DNA from: an uncultured bacterium
Lineage (GTDB): Bacteria; Verrucomicrobiota; Kiritimatiellia; PWTM01
DNA length: 64,000 nucleotides
Direction: 5' to 3'
Assembly (NCBI GenBank): GCA_937139365.1
Contig: CAKZPT010000041.1
Location: forward strand, 1 to 64,000
A program made the translations under genes and the position numbers. Position 1 is the first letter of the stretch. Every line of letters starts with the position of its first letter. Below, piece after piece: positions 5,240-17,586 of this stretch. Under the pieces are notes generated by a model, which saw nothing but the letters and a program-made list of their open reading frames with translations, made no database searches and was not told the origin of the DNA.

Positions 5240-6288
5240 GGAGCCCTCCGGCGCGCAGTGAGGCGTTCGATCCGGGCGCGTCGCCGGACGCGGGCTGGGC
5301 GCGGCTCGGCGCGATCGCCGGCGAGCCAGCCCATCAGGCGAGGAGCGAAGTAGGTGACGACGGCCGAGGCACCGGCACGGTGGAACGCGGCCAGGGTCTC
5401 GAGCGCCGCCTCGCGCAGGTCAACGGCACCGGCGGCGGCGGCGTGGCAGAGCATCGCGTACTCGCCGGAAACCTGATAGGCCAGCACGGGAACGGCGACG
5501 GCGTCCCGCGCCTCGCGAACCAGGTCGAGGCACGGCAGGCCGGGTTTCACCAGCACGGCATCTGCGCCCTCGTCCACATCGCGGCGCAGCGCGCGCAGGG
5601 CAAGCCGGCGCGAAGGTGGAGGCAGTTGATAGGCCCGGCGGTCGCCGAAGGCGGGGGCGGACCTGGCCGCTTCGCGGAAAGGGCCATACAGGCAGGATGC
5701 GAGCTTGGCGGCGTAGCTCAGGATCGCCGTCGTCGAGCGGCGGACGGATTTGAGCGCCGCGCGGATGGCGGCGACGCGGTTGTCCATCATGTCCGACGGC
5801 GCGACCACATGGGCGCCGGCCTCGGCATAGGCCGCCGCGATCTGGGCCAGTCGCGCGATGGAGGCTTCGTTGTCCAGGCTGCCGTCCGGCCGCAGGATTC
5901 CGCAGTGGCCATGGGAGGTGTAGGCGCACAGGCACACGTCGGCAATCAGCAGGAGATCGGGATAGGCGGTGCGCAGCAGGCGCAGGGCGCGGGGCACGGG
6001 GGCGGCGGGGTCGTCCGCGCGCGAACCGCGTTCGTCGCGGCCCTCGCCGATGACGCCGAACAGCAACACCGCACGCAGCCCGGCGGCCACGGCCGGGTCG
6101 AGCACCTCGCGGAGACGATCCACTCCCCAGCGGCACTGGCCGGGCATCGCCGCGATCGGCTCGCGGACGCGGCGGCCGTCGGCGACGAAAAGGGGCCAGA
6201 TGAGGCGGTCCGGCGAGGGCCCCCCATCGGCCTGCCAGAGCCGCAGCACGGGATGGCCGATGCCGGGATGGAGTTCAACCGGCGTCAT
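5236..6288 (-). CDS. hemB: Delta-aminolevulinic acid dehydratase
   Basis: ADVCLCAYTSHGHCG, SYAAKLASCLYGPFREA, VLVKPGLPCLDL, YQVSGEYAML. Overlaps hemL by 4 nt. Confidence 0.93.
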   Translation of the reverse strand: MTPVELHPGIGHPVLRLWQADGGPSPDRLIWPLFVADGRRVREPIAAMPGQCRWGVDRLREVLDPAVAAGLRAVLLFGVIGEGRDERGSRADDPAAPVPRALRLLRTAYPDLLLIADVCLCAYTSHGHCGILRPDGSLDNEASIARLAQIAAAYAEAGAHVVAPSDMMDNRVAAIRAALKSVRRSTTAILSYAAKLASCLYGPFREAARSAPAFGDRRAYQLPPPSRRLALRALRRDVDEGADAVLVKPGLPCLDLVREARDAVAVPVLAYQVSGEYAMLCHAAAAGAVDLREAALETLAAFHRAGASAVVTYFAPRLMGWLAGDRAEPRPARVRRRARIERLTARRRAP

Positions 6289-7648
6289 CGAGGAGCTCTC
6301 CTTTCATTCCGGCGGCGTCGAGGGCGGCGAGCGTGGCCGGTCCGATCGCCAGCCAGCGTCGTCGCGCGCCGCGTTCGGCGGGGTAGTGGCGGAGAAACGA
6401 CGCGACGGTGCTGGGGCTGGTGAACAGCGCGCCGGCAAACCCGGACGGCAACGGTCCGGGGCAATGATCCAAGGTCTCGTACAACACGACGGGCACCAGC
6501 TCGACGCCGCACGGCGCCAACGCGCGGCGGCGCTCGTCGGCCGGCGCACGATCGGAACAAGGGTAGAAGACGCGGGCGATCCCGCCGGGCCAGCCGGCCG
6601 CCAGGCCGGCTACGCCGCGCATGTCGTGCACGACGTGGTCGGGCGCAAGGCCCAGACGCTCCATCGCGTCGGCCGTGGCCGGCCCGACGGCGAGCAGGCG
6701 GCGACCCGTGAGCGCCCGCACATCGCGCCAGTGGACAAGCGCTTCCACGAACGCGGCGGCGGCAAAGGCGGAGGCGAACAGGACGGCATCGCAGGCCGCC
6801 AGGCCGCTTTCCAGCGCGGCCACCCGTTCGGCCAGCGGCCGCGGGCGGCGCCGGATCATCGGCCAGGTGGCGGTCTCGCCGAGCCCGGCCAACCGATCGG
6901 GCCGCGTGCCGAGGATCAGCAGCGTGCGGGGTCCGATGCGGCCCGGCTCGGCGGCAGGAGGAACATCGCCGCGTTCGTCGAGCAGTTTCTGCCGAAAGTC
7001 GAGAGGCCGCAATGCGGCAAACCACTGGTCGTCCGAAGACCGCGCAACCACCGCGAGGTGGCCTTGCAGGGGTGCGGCCGCATCGAGCAGATACGAGTGG
7101 ATGCGTTCAGCGAGCCCGAGGCGGATCAGCGCGCAGGCCGCGACGACGATCGCGTCGTAGTCGCCCCGGTCGAGGGCCGCCAGCCACTGTTCGATGTTGC
7201 CGCGGAGGGGGACCGTTTCGGCGTTCCGAATAACCCGGCGGACGGCCGCATAGCGCCGGGGAGTACTCGAGCCCACCCGCCGGACAGCGGCGAGGTCCGG
7301 CACACCTTCGCGGAGGACGAAGGCGTCACGAAGATCGAGGTTCGGCAGGAACGCGGCCACCGCCAGTTCGGGCCGCAGACGGCGGGGAAGGTCCTTGGCC
7401 GAGTGGACGGCCAGGTCGCAGCCGTCGGCCAACAGGAGGCCGTCGAGGTCGCGGGTGAAAAAATCGTCCGGTACGGAGGGATCGGCCAGGGCCGTCACGC
7501 GGTCGCGATCACCCGGCGTCTCGGCCCAGATGAACTCGAAAGCCACCTGCGGGCCCAAGGCCGTCCGAAACGCGGCGACGGCCTCGGCGACCTGCGCGCG
7601 GGACAGGGGGCTGGGCCGAGCGGCGATCCTCAGGGGGCGGCCGCCCAT
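6275..7648 (-). CDS. Fused short HemC (hydroxymethylbilane synthase-like) and HemD (uroporphyrinogen-III synthase)
   Basis: LRIAARPSPLSRAQ, DLAVHSAKDLP, PLRGNIEQWLAALDRGDYDAIVVAA (HemC), continuing in frame to HemD-like AVLFASAFAAAAFVEA, LLAVGPATADAMERLGL, ALFTSPSTVASFLRHYP. No HemC domain-3 CxxPxG-type motif. Confidence 0.8.
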   Translation of the reverse strand: MGGRPLRIAARPSPLSRAQVAEAVAAFRTALGPQVAFEFIWAETPGDRDRVTALADPSVPDDFFTRDLDGLLLADGCDLAVHSAKDLPRRLRPELAVAAFLPNLDLRDAFVLREGVPDLAAVRRVGSSTPRRYAAVRRVIRNAETVPLRGNIEQWLAALDRGDYDAIVVAACALIRLGLAERIHSYLLDAAAPLQGHLAVVARSSDDQWFAALRPLDFRQKLLDERGDVPPAAEPGRIGPRTLLILGTRPDRLAGLGETATWPMIRRRPRPLAERVAALESGLAACDAVLFASAFAAAAFVEALVHWRDVRALTGRRLLAVGPATADAMERLGLAPDHVVHDMRGVAGLAAGWPGGIARVFYPCSDRAPADERRRALAPCGVELVPVVLYETLDHCPGPLPSGFAGALFTSPSTVASFLRHYPAERGARRRWLAIGPATLAALDAAGMKGELLDDAG

Positions 7649-8598
7649 GTGCGCGCTCCCTCGGCAACGAGGCGGGCCGCGATATCCGCACGCCGACGGC
7701 GGTCCTCGAAGTTGACCTTTGCCCGGGCCTCCACCTCGCCCAGCGAGACATAGCGCAGGTCCTTCAGTTCGCGCACATCCGTCGCGCAATCCGGTGGCAC
7801 GCCGAGGTACACGATCACCAGCGGCCGGCGCGCCGCAGCGAGGTGCCGGGCATCGAGGACCGGATGGGGGGGCCGCGGTCGCGCAGATGATCCCGCCGGC
7901 CCCCTCCAGCAGCGAGGCGAGCGTGTCCAGACCGCCCGCGAATCCGCCCACGAGGGCGGCGACCCGCAACGCGTTCTCGGGGCACCGGCCGGCGACCCGG
8001 ACCGCTTCGACGCCGCGCCCGGCCAGCCTCCGCGTCACCGACACCGCCAGCGATCCGGAACTGACCACGGCCACCGGCCAGCCCGCCGGCATATCGCTCA
8101 GCAGCTCCCGCACCGCCAAGGTCGCCAGCGAAATCATGGACCGGTCAATCCCGCTTTCCCGCCGCGCGCGACGGGCCAATTCGAGGACGTCCTGAAAGAC
8201 GCGATCCAAGGCCGCATCGTCCGCACCGCCCAGTTCGCGGAACCGGCGGTAGGATTCTCGGACCTGGCCAAGGATCTCGAGCTCGCCCAACACCCGGCTT
8301 TCGAGGCCCGCGGCGATGCGGGCCAGCCGTTCGAAGGCCTCCGCGCCGCGCCATTCCTGTCGGATGGCGTGCGGTTCCACCACGCCCGGCCGCCCCAGAC
8401 CATACCATTCGAGGCGCTGATACGTATCCAGGACAAGGCCCCGGCCGGCCGACGCCCCCATAGCGCAGCGACCCGCTCCGCCCGGCCGGCAGGTTCGTCC
8501 AAACGGAGGTCAAGGCCGGTCAGGCCGATGAAGCGACGCCGAGGCTCGACCGTCGCCGTGGCGGGCTTCAACGCGGCGGTTGGGGACTTCGAGGGCAT
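7630..8598 (-). pseudogene. hemA: Glutamyl-tRNA reductase-like protein, two frameshifts (about 8432 and 7866-7872) and no catalytic Cys
   Basis: RIAAGLESRVLGELEILGQVRESYRRF (GluTR hallmark), VFQDVLELARRARRES, tail LVIVYLGVPPDCATDVRELKDLRYVSLGEVEARAKVNFEDRRRRAD in another frame. N-terminal segment RRRFIGLTGLDLRL in a third frame. Confidence 0.72.
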
Positions 8599-9524: not shown

Positions 9525-11150
9525 TCACCCCTCCGGCAATCCAAATGCGTCCAAACCTTGGAACGCCAGCCGCACCGGATTTCCAAACATTGGAACCACG
9601 GCGACCGGCCACGACGAGACCGGCGGATACCGGCAAGGCGTGTCGAGCAGCAAGATCGCCAGCGCCGTTGCGCGAACCGAGGCGACGCCGCGGCTGTCGG
9701 ACCAGACCCCGCCCGCGTCGCGCCGGCTCAACACCGAGGCCGCCAGGGCGCCATACCATTTCATCCACGACGGTCCGCCCTCGTTGAACCGGCACGCGGT
9801 GGCCAGCAGCAGTGCCTCACCACCCGCGGACTCCCCGCCGGTTCGCGGCCACGCCGGCGACATCGAATCCAACGCCTTCAGGCCCCGCAGCGCGCGCGTG
9901 CCGGCGTCATCGCCGGCCATCTGTAGCGTCAAGACGGCGCCGGCGATCTGCGACCAACGCAATGGGGAAACGCCGCCGGCCGACGGATAATACAGCGACC
10001 CGCTGGCGGGGTTCAGCGATCGGTCCATTGCATCCGCCGCACGGGCAATGGCGGCGTGGATGGCGGGCTCGTCCGCCCCGGCTGCCAGCGCCAACCGCAG
10101 TCCCCAGGTCATCCAGGCGGTGATCACGGGATCGGCCGAGGACGAGGCCCCCCACCCGCCGTTGGAGATCTGGTCGGAAAGCGCCTGCCGGACCGTCAAG
10201 TCCATCGCCGCGCGGACAGCGGGCAGACGGGTGGCGGCGGAGGCATCGGCCATCGCATGCAGCCGCAAGGCGGAGGCGCGTAGGTCGGAGGGACGGCCGG
10301 TGGTGCCGGTCAGAAACGCAAGGGCCCCCCGCACCACGGCGGCGTGCGGTCCACTCCGATGGGTGTCGCCACGCCCCAGCAACGCCAACAACGCCAGGCT
10401 GGTCAGGGCCTGCGGGTCGCTGCCCTCCTCGCGCCAGGCGCCGTCGGTGGATTGTCGCCCGGCCAGCCATCGTGCGGCGCGTGCGGCGGCCTCGTCGGCC
10501 TGCCGGGCCACAACTCCGCCGGCGGCCAGGTACGCGGCCCGCGCAGTGGCGGTGCGCCGTTCGGTCAGAGGATGGGGCCCCGTCAACGCCACATCGCCGC
10601 CGGCGCGGGAAGCGGACACAGCGGCGTCCTCCGGATCCATCCAAACGGCCACGGGGTCCAAGGACTCGCCGGGCCGTGTGGCGGCCGCCGATGCCGGCGG
10701 GGCACGCACCTCGACCGGCGGGGCGGGCAGCTCGCCGGGGCGTCCTTCCAACGCCGTTCGCTCGGCCGGCCGCTCCAGCGCGATCTCCACCCCATCGGCC
10801 TCGCCGCCGTCGTCCCTCCGCGGGGGGGACGGAAAGATCACCCATCGGATCAGAAACACCAGCAACGCGGCATGGGCGACGAGCGCGACCGCGGGGCCCC
10901 AGATGTGCTCGCTCAGCGGCCGGCGCCCCGCCAGGGGCCGCGAACCGGGCGCCACCACCTGCTCGCTGCGGGAACGTCTCACCGCCCGCTCGATCGTCGA
11001 ATCCCAGCGGGCGGCCGACGCGAACCTTCGGGCCGCCTCGGGCGAGGCGCGCAACTCCGCCTCGAGCCGCGCGAGCCCCTCGGCGTCGAGGGCGTCGTTC
11101 AAGTACGCCTCGATCAGTCCGTCGAGCGGATCCGGAGGCCTTACGGTCAT
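9525..11150 (-). CDS. Membrane protein: anti-sigma/FecR-like N-terminus, TM helix, terpene-cyclase/prenyltransferase-like alpha/alpha-toroid domain
   Basis: LIEAYLNDALDAEGLARLEAELRASPEAARRF N-terminus; TM ALVAHAALLVFLIRWVIF; repeats ARWLAGRQSTDGAWREE, QISNGGWGASSSADPVITAWMTWGL. ATGA overlap with the sigma gene. Confidence 0.78.
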   Translation of the reverse strand: MTVRPPDPLDGLIEAYLNDALDAEGLARLEAELRASPEAARRFASAARWDSTIERAVRRSRSEQVVAPGSRPLAGRRPLSEHIWGPAVALVAHAALLVFLIRWVIFPSPPRRDDGGEADGVEIALERPAERTALEGRPGELPAPPVEVRAPPASAAATRPGESLDPVAVWMDPEDAAVSASRAGGDVALTGPHPLTERRTATARAAYLAAGGVVARQADEAAARAARWLAGRQSTDGAWREEGSDPQALTSLALLALLGRGDTHRSGPHAAVVRGALAFLTGTTGRPSDLRASALRLHAMADASAATRLPAVRAAMDLTVRQALSDQISNGGWGASSSADPVITAWMTWGLRLALAAGADEPAIHAAIARAADAMDRSLNPASGSLYYPSAGGVSPLRWSQIAGAVLTLQMAGDDAGTRALRGLKALDSMSPAWPRTGGESAGGEALLLATACRFNEGGPSWMKWYGALAASVLSRRDAGGVWSDSRGVASVRATALAILLLDTPCRYPPVSSWPVAVVPMFGNPVRLAFQGLDAFGLPEG

Positions 11151-11680
11151 GCCCCTGCCTCCGCCCATCGGCGGTGGACGCACTCGCGCAGCGCCTGGCG
11201 CAGACGAGACAGCGCCTTGTTCACCGCGTCGAGCGTGCTCGACAGACGCCGCGCGATCGCGTCCAGCGTCAGGTTCTCCTCGTAGCGCAACGCCAGCAGA
11301 CGGCGAGATTTTTCCGGCAACATCTCGATGCACGCCCGGAGCGCCGCCTCCTTTTCGGCCAGCTCCTCCGCCTCCCCTTCCGTGGCATCGAAAGCGGCCA
11401 ACACCGCCTCCATCGTCTCGGGCGCCAGTGGAACAGGCACGCGCTTCTGCCGGGCAAACGACTGCAACACCTTGTGGACAGCGATGCCGCGCGCCCACGC
11501 ACCGAACGAGCGCGCCTCGTCGAAGTCGTCGAACTTCCGCCAGAGGGTCAGCGCCACCTCTTGCAGGATGTCTTCGCGGGCATGGCGATCCCGAACCATC
11601 GAGCCGACGACGGCGGCGATCTCGTCCTGATGGCGCAGAAAGTGCGCCAGAAACCGTTCGTGCCGTTCCGATTCCGTCAC
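11147..11680 (-). CDS. ECF RNA polymerase sigma factor (PVC-type)
   Basis: GTG start VTESERHERFLAHFLRHQDEIAAVVGSMVRDRHAREDILQEVALTLWRKFDDFDEARSFGAWARGIA; region 4 LPEKSRRLLALRYEENLTLDAIARRL. Confidence 0.9.
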   Translation of the reverse strand: MTESERHERFLAHFLRHQDEIAAVVGSMVRDRHAREDILQEVALTLWRKFDDFDEARSFGAWARGIAVHKVLQSFARQKRVPVPLAPETMEAVLAAFDATEGEAEELAEKEAALRACIEMLPEKSRRLLALRYEENLTLDAIARRLSSTLDAVNKALSRLRQALRECVHRRWAEAGA

Positions 11681-11933
11681 GCTTCCTCTTCCGGGCGGCC
11701 GGGCCGGTTGGACATCTGGCGACCCCGGCCGGAAAAGCATAGCCGCGCGCCACCGAGCTTCCAAGGGCGACCGTGAGTCGGCCACGCGTCCGACGGGCCT
11801 GCCGCCTGCGTCCGCCATCCCTCGACCTCGCGGGGCGCGCCGGCCCCCGCTGCCGCCGGCCGCTTGCGAAAGGCCGCGCGGGATGGGACATTGGGGCGGC
11901 CGGCGCCGCCCTACCGGCGGCGGAGGCGCGACC

Positions 11934-12983
11934 ATGAACGACACCGCCCGCCCATCCGTGGCTCGCAAAGGCCCGCCGTTATCGGTCCTGTTGTCGATTT
12001 CCCTCCTCGCGGCGTCGGCCGCGGTGGCGCTGACTCGCGGGGCGCGCGCAACGGACACGGAGGTGATCGTCGAGCGCATCCCGCCCGGGACGGCGACGCC
12101 GGACATCAACCTCGGCCTCGTCGGCGACGCGGCGACCGCCGCGGAACCGAGAATCGGCCGGCGATACCTCGCCCGAATGGTCGAGGCGTCGCGCACCAGC
12201 CCCGATGCCGTTGCACGAATCGGCGGGCGCGTGACGTTCGTCGCCGGCGCCAGGCCGGGCGAGACGCGCGTGGTCGAGGTGACGGCGGTCCGGGCGACCG
12301 TCGCCGAGGCAGTAGCGGTGGGGCCCCCGCAGGCTGCGCCCTCCGATGCGGTCCCGGCCGCCGCGCAAACGTACACGGGGGCTGTCGAGGGCGTCGGGAC
12401 GCGGGGGGACGGCCGGGTGACCGTGGAGGGCCTGCCCGTCTACGTCCCCGGCGCGGCGAAAGGTGAACGCATTGTCTTCGAGATCGTCCGCCGGTCCGAC
12501 CGGTATGGGACCGGCCGTCTGATCGCGAAACTGCCGACGGAGCCGGCGGACGGGCGACCGGACGTCGGCGCGGACGGGCTGGTCACGGGAGTGGTGGAGG
12601 GCATCGGTTCGCGCGGCGACGGCCGGGTTATCGTGGACGGCCTGCCGGTGTACGTCCCCGGGACGGCGGTCGGCGATCGCATCGTGTTTGCGGTCGAGCG
12701 CCGGACCGACCGGTACGGCACTGGCCGTCTGGTGGAGAAACTGTCGGCGGGCGGTGGGCCGCCGGTCGAGCTGAAGGTCGGCGACATCCTCGAGGTGACG
12801 ATTACCGAGCGCTCCCGCCGCAACCCCGAACGGGAGGGGGTGGCGCGGATCGGCGGCCGAGCGCTGATTGTGCCAGGGGTGGCCAGCGGGCAGACCGTGC
12901 GGGTGCGCATCAGCGAGGTCCGCGAGCGGGTCGCGTTCGGGGAAGTGGCGCCGGCCAGTCCGCCGGCCGAGGCCTCGCCGTAG
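11934..12983 (+). CDS. Exported or membrane-anchored protein with four tandem TRAM-like domains
   Basis: N-terminal hydrophobic segment LSVLLSISLLAASAAVALT; TRAM-like units such as YTGAVEGVGTRGDGRVTVEGLPVYVPGAAKGERIVFEIVRRSDRYGTGRLI and VTGVVEGIGSRGDGRVIVDGLPVYVPGTAVGDRIVFAVERRTDRYGTGRLV. Confidence 0.82.
   Translation: MNDTARPSVARKGPPLSVLLSISLLAASAAVALTRGARATDTEVIVERIPPGTATPDINLGLVGDAATAAEPRIGRRYLARMVEASRTSPDAVARIGGRVTFVAGARPGETRVVEVTAVRATVAEAVAVGPPQAAPSDAVPAAAQTYTGAVEGVGTRGDGRVTVEGLPVYVPGAAKGERIVFEIVRRSDRYGTGRLIAKLPTEPADGRPDVGADGLVTGVVEGIGSRGDGRVIVDGLPVYVPGTAVGDRIVFAVERRTDRYGTGRLVEKLSAGGGPPVELKVGDILEVTITERSRRNPEREGVARIGGRALIVPGVASGQTVRVRISEVRERVAFGEVAPASPPAEASP
12385..12755 (+). repeat. 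Tandem intragenic duplication of a TRAM-encoding unit (about 12385-12540 and 12590-12750)
   Basis: Two adjacent segments share most nucleotides, e.g. gacggccgggt..tcgtgga.ggcctgcc.gt.tacgtccccgg and gaccgaccggta.gg.ac.ggccgtctg. Confidence 0.7.
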
Positions 12984-12992
12984 GAAGGGGCG

Positions 12993-13757
12993 GTGGCGGT
13001 CGTCCGGTCCACCGAGACGAGTCTGACGCGTCGCCGGCGCGCGATGCAGACGGAGGCGCGCTGGCTGGCGCGGCTGGCGCCGGTGGAGCTTGGGGCGGCC
13101 GTACTGCTGGTGGCCGTCGGCGCCTGGGCGGCGGCGAGGCAGCGGCCCGCCGCGGGCTGGTGGATCGGGGCCGCCGCGGTCGGCCTGCTCGGCGGGGGCC
13201 ACCTCTGGAAGGCCCGGCAAAACCGGGATGAAGGACGGGCGCTGCGCGCCGGCGCCAGCGGCGAGGAGCGGGTGGCCGAGGCTCTGGCGAGGCATTTCGA
13301 CGACCGCCATGTCCTATTCAATGACGTCACCTTGCGCAGCGGGCTGCGCTCGGCGCAGGTGGATCACCTCGTGGTGGGGCCAAGCGGCGTGTGGGTGGTC
13401 GAGACGAAGAACTGGGGCGGACGCATCGAGGGCGAGGCCGACGCCGCCGTATGGACGCAGATTCGCCCCGCCGGCGCACCGCGGCGGCTGGACAATCCCG
13501 TCCGCCAGAATCGCCGTCACGTCGCCGTCGTGCGGGGCTTTCTGGAGGTGGCCGGACTGGGCGCCGCGGAGGTGCGGGCGGTCACGGTCTTTGCCGGGCG
13601 CGGGACGGAGCTGGCCATCCGCGGCGCGCGGTCGGATGAGCCGGTGCTGACGCTCGACGAGTTTCCTGCCCGCCTCACCGCAGTCGTCGCCAATGCGCGG
13701 GAGCTGCCGACGGCGACGGTTGAGCGGCTGGTTGCACGGATCTCGGAGGCGGCGTAG
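12993..13757 (+). CDS. NERD (nuclease-related) domain protein with two N-terminal TM helices
   Basis: ASGEERVAEALARHFDDRHVLFNDVTLRSGLRSAQVDHLVVGPSGVWVVETKNWGGRIEGEA; preceded by hydrophobic VELGAAVLLVAVGAWAA and WWIGAAAVGLLGGGH. Confidence 0.88.
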   Translation: MAVVRSTETSLTRRRRAMQTEARWLARLAPVELGAAVLLVAVGAWAAARQRPAAGWWIGAAAVGLLGGGHLWKARQNRDEGRALRAGASGEERVAEALARHFDDRHVLFNDVTLRSGLRSAQVDHLVVGPSGVWVVETKNWGGRIEGEADAAVWTQIRPAGAPRRLDNPVRQNRRHVAVVRGFLEVAGLGAAEVRAVTVFAGRGTELAIRGARSDEPVLTLDEFPARLTAVVANARELPTATVERLVARISEAA

Positions 13758-13765
13758 GGGGGCGG

Positions 13766-13993
13766 ATGCCAGGAGGGTGGTCCAGCGGCAGCACGGGTCC
13801 GGCGCGGCGAACGTTGCGCCGCGCGGTGCTGACGGTCAACGCAACGGGCTTTGCGGTGTACCTGTTCTGGCTGGCCTCCCGGGGCCGACGTCTTTTTTTC
13901 GATCCCGAGGGTGCGATCCAATTGCTGCCGTGCCTGGCGTTCCTTTTCGTGTTCGTGTGCCTGGCGAGCGATGGCGGGGGCGGCGGAGGGTGA
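13766..13993 (+). CDS. Small membrane protein
   Basis: 75 aa, two hydrophobic stretches (VLTVNATGFAVYLFWLAS; LLPCLAFLFVFVCLAS); tightly packed between NERD and comEC. Confidence 0.55.
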   Translation: MPGGWSSGSTGPARRTLRRAVLTVNATGFAVYLFWLASRGRRLFFDPEGAIQLLPCLAFLFVFVCLASDGGGGGG

Positions 13994-14201
13994 GGGTATG
14001 GAGCGCGGGGCAGTCGGTCTGGCGAGGATTCTGGCGGTGGCGATGGCGATCGGCGCGCTCGTGATCGTAGTGCGCCCCGACTATCGCGCGGCGCTGGCGT
14101 GCCTGTGGCGCGGCCGGCCGGCGGAATCGCCCATCTGGCAATCCAATTCGCGATACTATCCCGGCATCGACCAGCCGGCGGAAGGGGCACATGGCGACTA
14201 G
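13971..14201 (+). CDS. Small single-TM protein
   Basis: GAVGLARILAVAMAIGALVIVV TM segment; overlaps the comEC start at 14191. Confidence 0.5.
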   Translation: MAGAAEGEGMERGAVGLARILAVAMAIGALVIVVRPDYRAALACLWRGRPAESPIWQSNSRYYPGIDQPAEGAHGD

Positions 14202-17200
14202 CTCGGCCATTCTCCTGATCTGCTACGCGTTCGTCGCCGGCATCGGTTTTTCGATGGCGTGGGACCTCGGCGCCGTGGTCGCGGCGGGGTGTGCAGCCGG
14301 CGGCGCGCTCGCGCTCGCGGTGGCGGCGTGGATGCGACGGCGCGGGATGCGAGCGGCGGCACGGCAGGCGGTAGAGACCGCCGCCGCGATCGGACTGGGG
14401 CTCGGGTCGGGCATGGCGCGTCACATCGCGGCCGTGGCGAGACCCGACGCGCACTGGGCGGAGGTGGCGGTCGATGAAACCGTGGCGCGGCTGGAACGAA
14501 CGCGGACCGGTTTCGACACGGGCCGCATTCGCCTGGAGCTGCTGGAGCCGCCAGCGTCGGACCTTGCGATCCGGCTGGTCGGGGAGGTGGATGCCCGCCT
14601 GCCCGCGGGCGAGGGCGGGTCGGTGGCGGCCGACGAGGGGGGGCGGTGGCGGTTCCGGATGGCGACGTTGACGGTGACCACGGACGCGATCCGGGTGCGG
14701 TCGGACGATCCGGTCGGTCGTGAATGGTGGCCGGCGACGCCGCTGACGCGCCTGATCGGCGTGGTGCTGTCCGGGGGCCGCGGTCCTGCGCGGCTCCGGG
14801 TTTGGCGGGTGGCCGGCCAGATCGGCGCCTTTGCGCGGGCGGAGCGGCGCCAACCGCCGCTGCGGGTGCTGGGCCACGTCAGCGGTGACCCGATCGTCTA
14901 TGACTACAAGACCGTCCTGCCGGTGACCCCTCACTACATCGAATGGCCGGCCGGCGGGCCGTTCCTGCGCGCCGAAGGCGGCCTGATCCACGTGACGATC
15001 CGGCCGGAGGCGCCGGGCTATGCGGAGATGTCCGGGACGGCGGCGTATGGACGGCTAATCGAAGTCACTGCCCCACTGCAGGCGCCCGCCGGCGCGCGCA
15101 ACCCCGGCGGCTTCGACTATCGCCGGTACCTTCGAAACAGCGGGGTGCAGGCGCTAATGTACCCCGACGTCCGCGAAGGCGGCGCGGGCGCGCGGCTGGT
15201 GGAGGCGGGGCGGCCCGGCGTGGCCCCACACCGTCACGCATGGGTGGCGTTCTCGTTGAACCTGCGTGACCGGCTGACGCGCGTGATCAAAGCGACGCTG
15301 CCGTGGCCGCAGTCGGCTTTCGTCGGCGGCGTGACGCTCGGGCTGCGGTACGGGCTGCAGAACGTGCTGTGCCTTCGCCGCACGGCGGATGCCGCCGGCG
15401 GGCCGGGGATTGGCTGTCCGGAGTTCATCGCCGACGAGTTCCGCGCCGCGGGAATCAGTCACGTGCTGGCCGTGTCGGGGTTGCACGTGACGATCATCAC
15501 GGTGATGTTCGTGGGGCTCTTCTCGCTCGCCCGCCTGCCGCGGCAGGTGTACGCACCGCTGATCCTCGCGGCGCTGGTGGTCTTCGCGATCGTCACCGGT
15601 GCGCGTCCGTCGACGCTGCGGGCCGTGATCATGAACGGCCTGATGCTGACGACGTGGGCCTATCTGCGGACCGGTCTGCGGGCCTCGGTGCTCTTCGGCG
15701 CGCCGGTGGCGGCGGCGTTGATCCTGCTCCACAACCCGCTGGTCGCCACCGATCCGTCGTTCACGCTGTCCTTCGGCGCGATCCTTTCGCTGGGGCTGCT
15801 GACGGAGCCGGTGCTGGAGCTGTTGCAGGGGCTGCGGGGTTGGCGGCTGATCGGCGCCGTCCTGGCGGCCGCCGGCTGGGCGGCCGCCACGGCGCTGCGC
15901 TGGCCGCTTGCGGCCACGCCGCAGTTCTGGGGGCCGATGGGCGCGATGACGGCCGCGCTGCTGGCGGCCGGCCGGGCGCTCGACCGGCGGGGCCCGGCGC
16001 TGCCGCGGTGGGTCGCCGCCGATCGCGCGCCCAAGGGCGTGTTGACCTTCGTCGCCGCGCAGGGGGCGATCCAGGTCGGGATGATGTTGCCCCTGTCGGC
16101 CTACTACTTCTGCCGGTGGCCTTTGGCCGGCGCGTGGGCGAACCTGGCGGCCATCCCGTTGATCGGCGTGATCGTGCAGCTGGGGGCGATCGGCGGGCTG
16201 CTCGGCCTGATACCGGTGGTCGGCCCCTATCTAGCACTGCTGTTCGGCGCCGCCAACTGGTTCTTTTCGACGCTGTTTCTGTTGCTTGGCCACGCGGCGG
16301 CCTGGAGTTTTCCGTATCCCTTCGTACGGCGTCCTGGCGAGGCCTTCCTCGCGGCGTGGTACGGCCTGTGCGCGCTCTGGATCTGGCGGCGACCGCTACG
16401 CGCCGCGCTCGAGGCGGCGGCCGCGCGGATCGGCGCGGGGCCGGCCGCGGCGCGCGCATGGATGGCCGTTGTGGCGGCGCTGATGGCAGGGGCGGCCGCC
16501 GTCCGCCTGGCGCCGGAACGACCGGGCGGCCTTCGGGTCACCTGGATCGCCGTCGACTACGGCGGGGCAACGCTGCTCGAGACGCCGTCGGGGCGCCGCG
16601 TGCTGGTGGACGCCGCCTTCGCCGACGCGGACCACTCCCGCCGCAACCAGGCGGTGCGGACGCTCCTGCCGTTTCTGGCGTCGCGGCGGATCCGGGCGGT
16701 GGACGCCCTGATCCTCACCTCGCTGCGGCCGGAACGGATCGGGGGCGCCGGCTCGGTGCTCGAATCCCTGTGGGTCCGCGAGGTGGCGCTGCCCGCGGCG
16801 TGGCCGTCGTGGGCGGAGGGAACGACCCCGGACGAGGTGGCGGCGGTCCTCGGATTGCCGCTCGAATCGCCGTTGGCGGCGGCGATTCACGACGCGGTCG
16901 TCGGCTCGGCCGGCCCATTCCCGCGGCCGTCGCTCGTACGGGAACTCGCCCGTCGCCGCCCGACGCCGCTCAACCGCTGGGCGGGATGGGACGTGCGGGT
17001 GCGGCGGATCGCGGCGGGGGATGTACTGTACCAGGAGACCGGGCCGGACGGGGAGTTTCGGATCGAAGTGGCGCATCCGCCGGCCGAAACGGATCTCCGA
17101 GCAGGGCCGGACGCAGTTGCGGTGGCGTTGCGGGTGGTCTATGGCGACACGGCGCTGCTTTTGACCGGGGATCTGGGGCTCGCCGAGGCGGCGGCGATGG

Positions 17201-17586
17201 CCGGGCGGCTGGGGGCGCAGGGACGCGGTGCGCAGATCGTCACCGCGCCTCACCACGGCGCCCCGCCGGGGCTGCCGGCGGAGCGGGCTGCGGCCGAGGC
17301 GGTGCTCGACCGCGAGATCGGGGCGTTGCTGCGCGCGACCGGCGCGCGGACCGTGATCGCGGAGTTCGGCCGCTCGGCGGGCGTGCCCGGCGGCTCGCCC
17401 CGTTCGCGCGAGGCGGCGGCCGCGTGGATGCGCATGGCGGTGACCAGCGGCTCGGCGGACGTGGAGTGGCTTTCGACGGAAGAGGGATCGATCGCAGCCG
17501 AATCCGACGGCCGCACATGGAGGGGGCCGCAGCAGTCTGGCGCCGGCGGGGACGAGGCGGACGAGGCGCCGGCCTTCGACGGGTGA
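14191..17586 (+). CDS. comEC: ComEC/Rec2 family competence protein with a degenerate C-terminal metallo-beta-lactamase-like domain
   Basis: RNPGGFDYRRYLRNSGVQA, AAGISHVLAVSGLHVTIITVMFVG, VTGARPSTLRAVIMNGL; C-terminal TWIAVDYGGATLLETPSGRRVLVDAAF...LLLTGDLGLAEA...APHHGAPPG. Confidence 0.92.
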   Translation: MATSSAILLICYAFVAGIGFSMAWDLGAVVAAGCAAGGALALAVAAWMRRRGMRAAARQAVETAAAIGLGLGSGMARHIAAVARPDAHWAEVAVDETVARLERTRTGFDTGRIRLELLEPPASDLAIRLVGEVDARLPAGEGGSVAADEGGRWRFRMATLTVTTDAIRVRSDDPVGREWWPATPLTRLIGVVLSGGRGPARLRVWRVAGQIGAFARAERRQPPLRVLGHVSGDPIVYDYKTVLPVTPHYIEWPAGGPFLRAEGGLIHVTIRPEAPGYAEMSGTAAYGRLIEVTAPLQAPAGARNPGGFDYRRYLRNSGVQALMYPDVREGGAGARLVEAGRPGVAPHRHAWVAFSLNLRDRLTRVIKATLPWPQSAFVGGVTLGLRYGLQNVLCLRRTADAAGGPGIGCPEFIADEFRAAGISHVLAVSGLHVTIITVMFVGLFSLARLPRQVYAPLILAALVVFAIVTGARPSTLRAVIMNGLMLTTWAYLRTGLRASVLFGAPVAAALILLHNPLVATDPSFTLSFGAILSLGLLTEPVLELLQGLRGWRLIGAVLAAAGWAAATALRWPLAATPQFWGPMGAMTAALLAAGRALDRRGPALPRWVAADRAPKGVLTFVAAQGAIQVGMMLPLSAYYFCRWPLAGAWANLAAIPLIGVIVQLGAIGGLLGLIPVVGPYLALLFGAANWFFSTLFLLLGHAAAWSFPYPFVRRPGEAFLAAWYGLCALWIWRRPLRAALEAAAARIGAGPAAARAWMAVVAALMAGAAAVRLAPERPGGLRVTWIAVDYGGATLLETPSGRRVLVDAAFADADHSRRNQAVRTLLPFLASRRIRAVDALILTSLRPERIGGAGSVLESLWVREVALPAAWPSWAEGTTPDEVAAVLGLPLESPLAAAIHDAVVGSAGPFPRPSLVRELARRRPTPLNRWAGWDVRVRRIAAGDVLYQETGPDGEFRIEVAHPPAETDLRAGPDAVAVALRVVYGDTALLLTGDLGLAEAAAMAGRLGAQGRGAQIVTAPHHGAPPGLPAERAAAEAVLDREIGALLRATGARTVIAEFGRSAGVPGGSPRSREAAAAWMRMAVTSGSADVEWLSTEEGSIAAESDGRTWRGPQQSGAGGDEADEAPAFDG

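Follow-up and report, generated by a model that had tools for sequence, protein, structure and literature searches.

The 349-residue protein encoded at 11934..12983 (+ strand) of the window, that is, of the whole 64,000-nucleotide stretch of DNA analysed, carries four TRAM units behind a single N-terminal membrane helix. Its gene is the first of a conserved operon, in which it is followed by genes for a NERD nuclease-domain protein, two small membrane proteins (s1 and s2), and ComEC2, a divergent paralogue of ComEC. This operon, absent from the earlier note on the protein, is the strongest functional evidence. We consider the chances about even that the five proteins form a class-specific inner-membrane complex for the uptake or processing of nucleic acid. 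TRAM is known mainly from enzymes that modify tRNA and rRNA and from small archaeal RNA chaperones, and to our knowledge the role of NERD in bacteria has barely been studied. Here, known domains are combined in a conserved membrane operon, and the combination is apparently undescribed: literature searches on three topics, namely TRAM domains combined with a signal peptide, ComEC together with NERD, and natural transformation in Kiritimatiellota, returned no paper.

The ATG of the array gene is preceded by a GGAGG box a few bases 5′, and the product matches the Pfam TRAM model (PF01938) in four stretches (7.6e-21, 74.2 bits against a cut-off of 21); the relative L004 matches it likewise, in five stretches. 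In the AlphaFold2 model, for which the input was the window protein and one relative (a shallow alignment), one helix is followed by four five-strand units with the TRAM barrel fold. These are unit 1 at residues 77-128 (12162..12317), unit 2 at residues 146-200 (12369..12533), unit 3 at residues 216-270 (12579..12743), and unit 4 at residues 285-338 (12786..12947), all on the + strand, the last corresponding to the best Pfam stretch (281-338). The mean pLDDT was 64, with values mostly of 70-84 in the domains, and at a pTM of 0.25 the placement of the units relative to one another is uninformative. S1 proteins were the top Foldseek matches of this model, and 1yez, 1yvc, RlmCD-RNA, and MiaB-RNA were also retrieved. 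In a closer structural alignment the best 12 matches were all TRAM-bearing chains (RlmCD, RumA, MM1357, MMP0076, and MiaB; Z 8.7-10.3), with S1/OB-type proteins ranking below them at Z ≤7.6. The sequence search placed unit 4 closest to the archaeal stand-alone TRAM proteins 1yez and 1yvc. The NCBIfam PyTRAM model (NF053605) missed its equivalog cut-off, with 79.8 bits against 85, though four stretches match; archaeal PyTRAM proteins have a single domain, whereas the window protein has four units and a membrane anchor. The four TRAM units proposed in the earlier note were thus recovered by the Pfam profile, by the barrel count of the model, and by the best structural matches, and the stand-alone multi-TRAM architecture that it had called unusual turns out to belong to a conserved family. 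From the fold, together with the partner genes, we infer that the array binds nucleic acid.

Units 2 and 3 are duplicates of each other, with identity at 39 of 58 residues (67%) and 132 of 171 nucleotides (77%), against amino acid identities of 23-37% in the other unit pairs. The duplication of the middle units described earlier is therefore real and visible in the DNA, but the word “recent” was too strong. In one relative (G002) the DNA identity between the two equivalent units reaches 92%; judged by this value, that pair would be the younger, having been duplicated, or homogenised by gene conversion, later than the pair in the window.

The single N-terminal hydrophobic segment that had been noticed before corresponds to the helix at residues 16-35 (11979..12038, +) of the AlphaFold2 model and of the hydropathy profile, and hydropathy displays one such helix in every family member with a complete start. 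The helix looks like an uncleaved anchor, so the description of the protein as exported stands in part only: the charges favour an outward C-terminus in most relatives, not in all. When 15 residues on either side of the helix were counted, with the free amino group included, 27 of the 38 proteins were more basic before the helix than after it, 5 were equal, and 6 were opposite; with that group excluded, the numbers were 23, 4, and 11, respectively, the 38 including the truncated and uninformative L133. By the charge rule, an N-in/C-out orientation would apply to the 27, and in the window's own group, where the C-terminus is mostly predicted to lie outside, an outward-facing array is favoured. 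In family f26 the topology is ambiguous, since the basic residues after the helix equal or exceed those before it. The start of the G032 array resembles a signal peptide. Overall, the arrays of four relatives are acidic, with net charges of -19 to -31, and single TRAM units lie mostly between -5 and +5. Net charge was dropped as a test of nucleic-acid binding because the core of TRAM0076, a proven chaperone, itself carries -3. Two further proteins were encountered in relatives. In G029 a second two-TRAM membrane protein, strongly basic after its helix, is encoded directly downstream of ComEC2 (L029:4858-5595), and NERD genes stand on both sides of the first array. G019 additionally encodes, away from its operon, a distant protein with two TRAM units and a hydrophobic segment at the N-terminus (L044:7039-7764).

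The second gene of the operon (12993..13757, +) has a GTG start and encodes a NERD protein of 254 residues with an N-terminal membrane hairpin. It scores 92.8 bits against PF08378, and its D..ExK motif is intact (QVDHL..VVETKNW); in the alignment, D..ETK is kept in all single-copy NERD proteins. In the structural model, two long helices at the N-terminus precede an alpha/beta domain. The mid-scoring matches of this model include the nuclease-type chains Hjc, HsdR, Cas4, and EndoMS at Z of about 6-7, values insufficient alone. Basic residues at both ends of the hairpin favour an N-in/C-in arrangement with the domain in the cytosol. Paired NERD proteins occur in family f26 (L138, L139, L004, L145, and others), where ExK is missing from the first protein while ESK is retained in the second, as though a catalytic partner might be paired with a non-catalytic one. 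The next two genes encode the small membrane proteins s1, of about 75 residues (13766..13993, +), and s2, of 67 residues (13998..14201, +). Their profiles match in all 20 full operons, and that of s1 also in the relocated ComEC2 locus of G051; since about half of the loci went into building the profiles, the remaining ones provide the independent evidence. Neither s1 and s2 nor the ComEC3-linked protein described below could be credibly assigned to a family by searches of Pfam, NCBIfam, and PDB sequences.

ComEC2 (14191..17586, +), with 1131 residues, scores 121 bits against the competence domain PF03772 (cut-off 23) and 49 bits against PF13567 (DUF4131; cut-off 31.6). The equivalog cut-off of TIGR00361 (190) was missed by ComEC2 at 87 bits and also by the canonical ComEC1 of the same genome at 124.8. 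This ComEC1 is encoded on another contig, DprA is present in the genome as well, and a canonical ComEC was found in nearly every relative. Two or three ComEC proteins per genome are unusual, since with one exception every proteome in a published survey had a single protein of this type (PMC6299819). In a quick tree, for which the tool warns of some long branches, ComEC1, ComEC2, and ComEC3 formed separate groups with full support. The C-terminal metallo-beta-lactamase domain of ComEC is a Mn-dependent nuclease that needs the aspartates of motif II (PMC8579336). This motif is degenerate in ComEC2: in the alignment, from which the motifs were read because regular-expression searches were too strict, it is replaced in 19 of 19 ComEC2 proteins (e.g., TSPRPERAGG), and the ComEC1 of the window's genome keeps LDADH. 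The loss is suggestive only, because many ComEC1 proteins of the class are also eroded in their metallo-beta-lactamase motifs, and for the same reason we rejected the idea that NERD generally takes the place of the ComEC nuclease. ComEC3, the sister of ComEC2, was observed in eight genomes of the class (L077, L080-L086), in all eight directly behind the gene of a protein of about 625 residues. The C-terminal tail of that protein is homologous to s2 (hhalign 98.1%), and the motifs RFEDHHP and GGHAGAA in its body are reminiscent of DHH phosphoesterases, although no profile confirms this.

A scan of the collection gave one relative of the array, the five-TRAM protein L004 (JAISGX010000075.1, from a Verrucomicrobiota genome), and matches above 100 bits were obtained in seven families of one Verrucomicrobiota class (f1, f7, f8, f10, f12, f21, and f26), with two to five TRAM units per copy. 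Outside that class the array family was not found in an even sample of 387 genomes of the phylum; weak matches elsewhere reached at most about 55 bits, as ordinary single-TRAM proteins would give. The complete order TRAM-NERD-s1-s2-ComEC2 is present in 20 loci, the window included, and two further loci meet a contig edge after TRAM-NERD-s1. Of the 34 readable loci, 32 have a NERD gene right after the array; in the window its start codon lies 9 bases after the TRAM stop codon, and s2 overlaps the start of ComEC2. Departures from this order are found in family f26, in which 10 loci read TRAM-NERD-NERD and the one genome checked (G051) has ComEC2 apart from the array, preceded by s1, a cation-efflux-transporter-like gene, and s2. 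Another genome (G007) has TRAM-s1-s2-ComEC2 with no NERD gene alongside, and in G032 the TRAM protein stands alone without partners. Because the flanking genes are not conserved, with no flanking family common to more than 3 of 19 loci, the order appears to be held by selection and not by a shared background. Among 58 relatives, 17 have both ComEC2 and the array, 2 only ComEC2, 1 only the array, and 38 neither (p 1.5e-11, uncorrected for kinship); in both ComEC2-only genomes the contig is cut just upstream of ComEC2. The shared operon and this co-occurrence support a joint function.

In the complex that we propose, the array would be anchored by its N-terminal helix in the inner membrane, with its TRAM barrels probably exposed at the outer surface. 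There they would bind single-stranded DNA or RNA and keep it at the channel of ComEC2, through which the nucleic acid may pass. The hairpin-anchored NERD protein, with its domain predicted to be cytosolic, would then cut or trim it, s1 and s2 would serve as small assembly partners, and the whole would represent a second, specialised system for nucleic-acid import or processing in addition to the cell's canonical ComEC. Our confidence stays near one half because some arrays are acidic, the G032 array is found alone, the array does not replace ComEA in the genomes counted, and SmdA provides a precedent for a role in morphology. A replacement of ComEA by the array was rejected since the two are not complementary: ComEA-like HHH proteins occur in about 6 of the 18 array-bearing genomes and in 17 of the 40 that lack the array. 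A more specific version, which we hold to be rather doubtful, is a second import machine in which an outward TRAM receptor serves a dedicated ComEC2 channel whose nuclease domain is dead, and NERD takes over the cutting, possibly for RNA or for nucleic-acid feeding rather than for transformation.

The side of the membrane on which the array lies is central to the first of the alternatives. With an N-out anchor, the array would be cytosolic and would pair with NERD to process RNA or DNA at the inner membrane surface, for instance nucleic acid that leaves ComEC2. The N-in/C-in hairpin predicted for NERD, with its domain in the cytosol, is consistent with this arrangement, as are the f26 arrays, equally or more basic after the helix, and the cytosolic location of all other TRAM proteins known; but the charge distribution of 27 of the 38 arrays, that of the window among them, and the signal-peptide-like start of the G032 copy argue against it, and we regard it as possible, if unlikely. 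A complex for envelope or cell morphology, in which the TRAM units would mediate protein-protein contacts, NERD would be a scaffold without catalytic activity, as has been suggested for SmdA, and ComEC2 would no longer transport DNA, appears improbable. SmdA, a membrane-anchored NERD protein, is needed for normal division (PMC9040797), and both the lost nuclease motif of ComEC2 and the acidity of some arrays would fit such a role. SmdA, however, is missing several residues that NERD domains conserve, whereas none of the single-copy NERD proteins here has lost D..ExK, and the meeting of TRAM, NERD, and ComEC, all linked to nucleic acid, in one operon would then be a coincidence. Least probable, and in our view very unlikely, is a defence system destroying incoming foreign DNA at the membrane. 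NERD domains are found in PglW and MAD6, both defence proteins, and the NERD protein of the window scores against those models, but only at 29-56 bits, which reflects the shared domain and lies far below the curated cut-offs where these are given; PADLOC gave no match for the TRAM array, s1, s2, or ComEC2, and the distribution follows lineage. Membership in a known anti-phage system was accordingly rejected, the matches being local to the NERD domain.

Returning to the proposed uptake or processing complex, its parts can be compared with known systems. The archaeal TRAM RNA chaperones (1yvc, and MM1357 = 1yez) have the same domain by sequence and fold, likewise with no enzyme domain attached, but they are single cytosolic domains of about 70 residues, whereas four units (2-5 in relatives) lie behind a membrane helix here, in an operon with NERD and ComEC2. 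TRAM0076/MMP0076 (1yvc) has been shown to be an RNA chaperone (PMC6705878). The TRAM domains of RumA/RlmD, RlmCD, and MiaB share the fold at the Z values given above; in those proteins, however, TRAM is accessory to an enzyme that modifies RNA. Ribosomal protein S1 is also a beads-on-a-string array of small RNA-binding barrels and led the Foldseek matches; it differs in being cytosolic, and its S1/OB domains fall below TRAM in the closer alignment. The transformation machinery of ComEC and ComEA with NucA or EndA likewise comprises a channel, a candidate binder, and a nuclease, and the same division of labour is proposed here, with TRAM in place of the helix-hairpin-helix binder and NERD in place of NucA or EndA; ComEC2 differs from canonical ComEC in its separate clade and dead motif II, and ComEC1 is present as well. 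SmdA of Staphylococcus aureus resembles the second gene of the operon as a membrane-anchored NERD protein with a predicted cytosolic domain, but it has a single membrane helix, is missing several of the residues conserved in NERD, and is encoded by a monocistronic gene (PMC9040797). If the proposal is correct, TRAM would extend to membrane nucleic-acid traffic, NERD would gain a clear pathway, and ComEC would be shown to have split into specialised paralogues within single cells.

Two other regions of the window were also inspected. Divergent to the operon, the region 9525-11742 (-) encodes a sigma factor of the ECF type (Pfam Sigma70_r2/r4). The membrane protein encoded after it resembles an anti-sigma factor to which a terpene-cyclase-like repeat domain is attached. 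Read by eye, a 728-residue open reading frame at 6275-8461 (-) begins like glutamyl-tRNA reductase (HemA), has a garbled middle, and continues with HemC- and HemD-like parts, possibly as the result of a frameshift or of fusion within a haem gene cluster.
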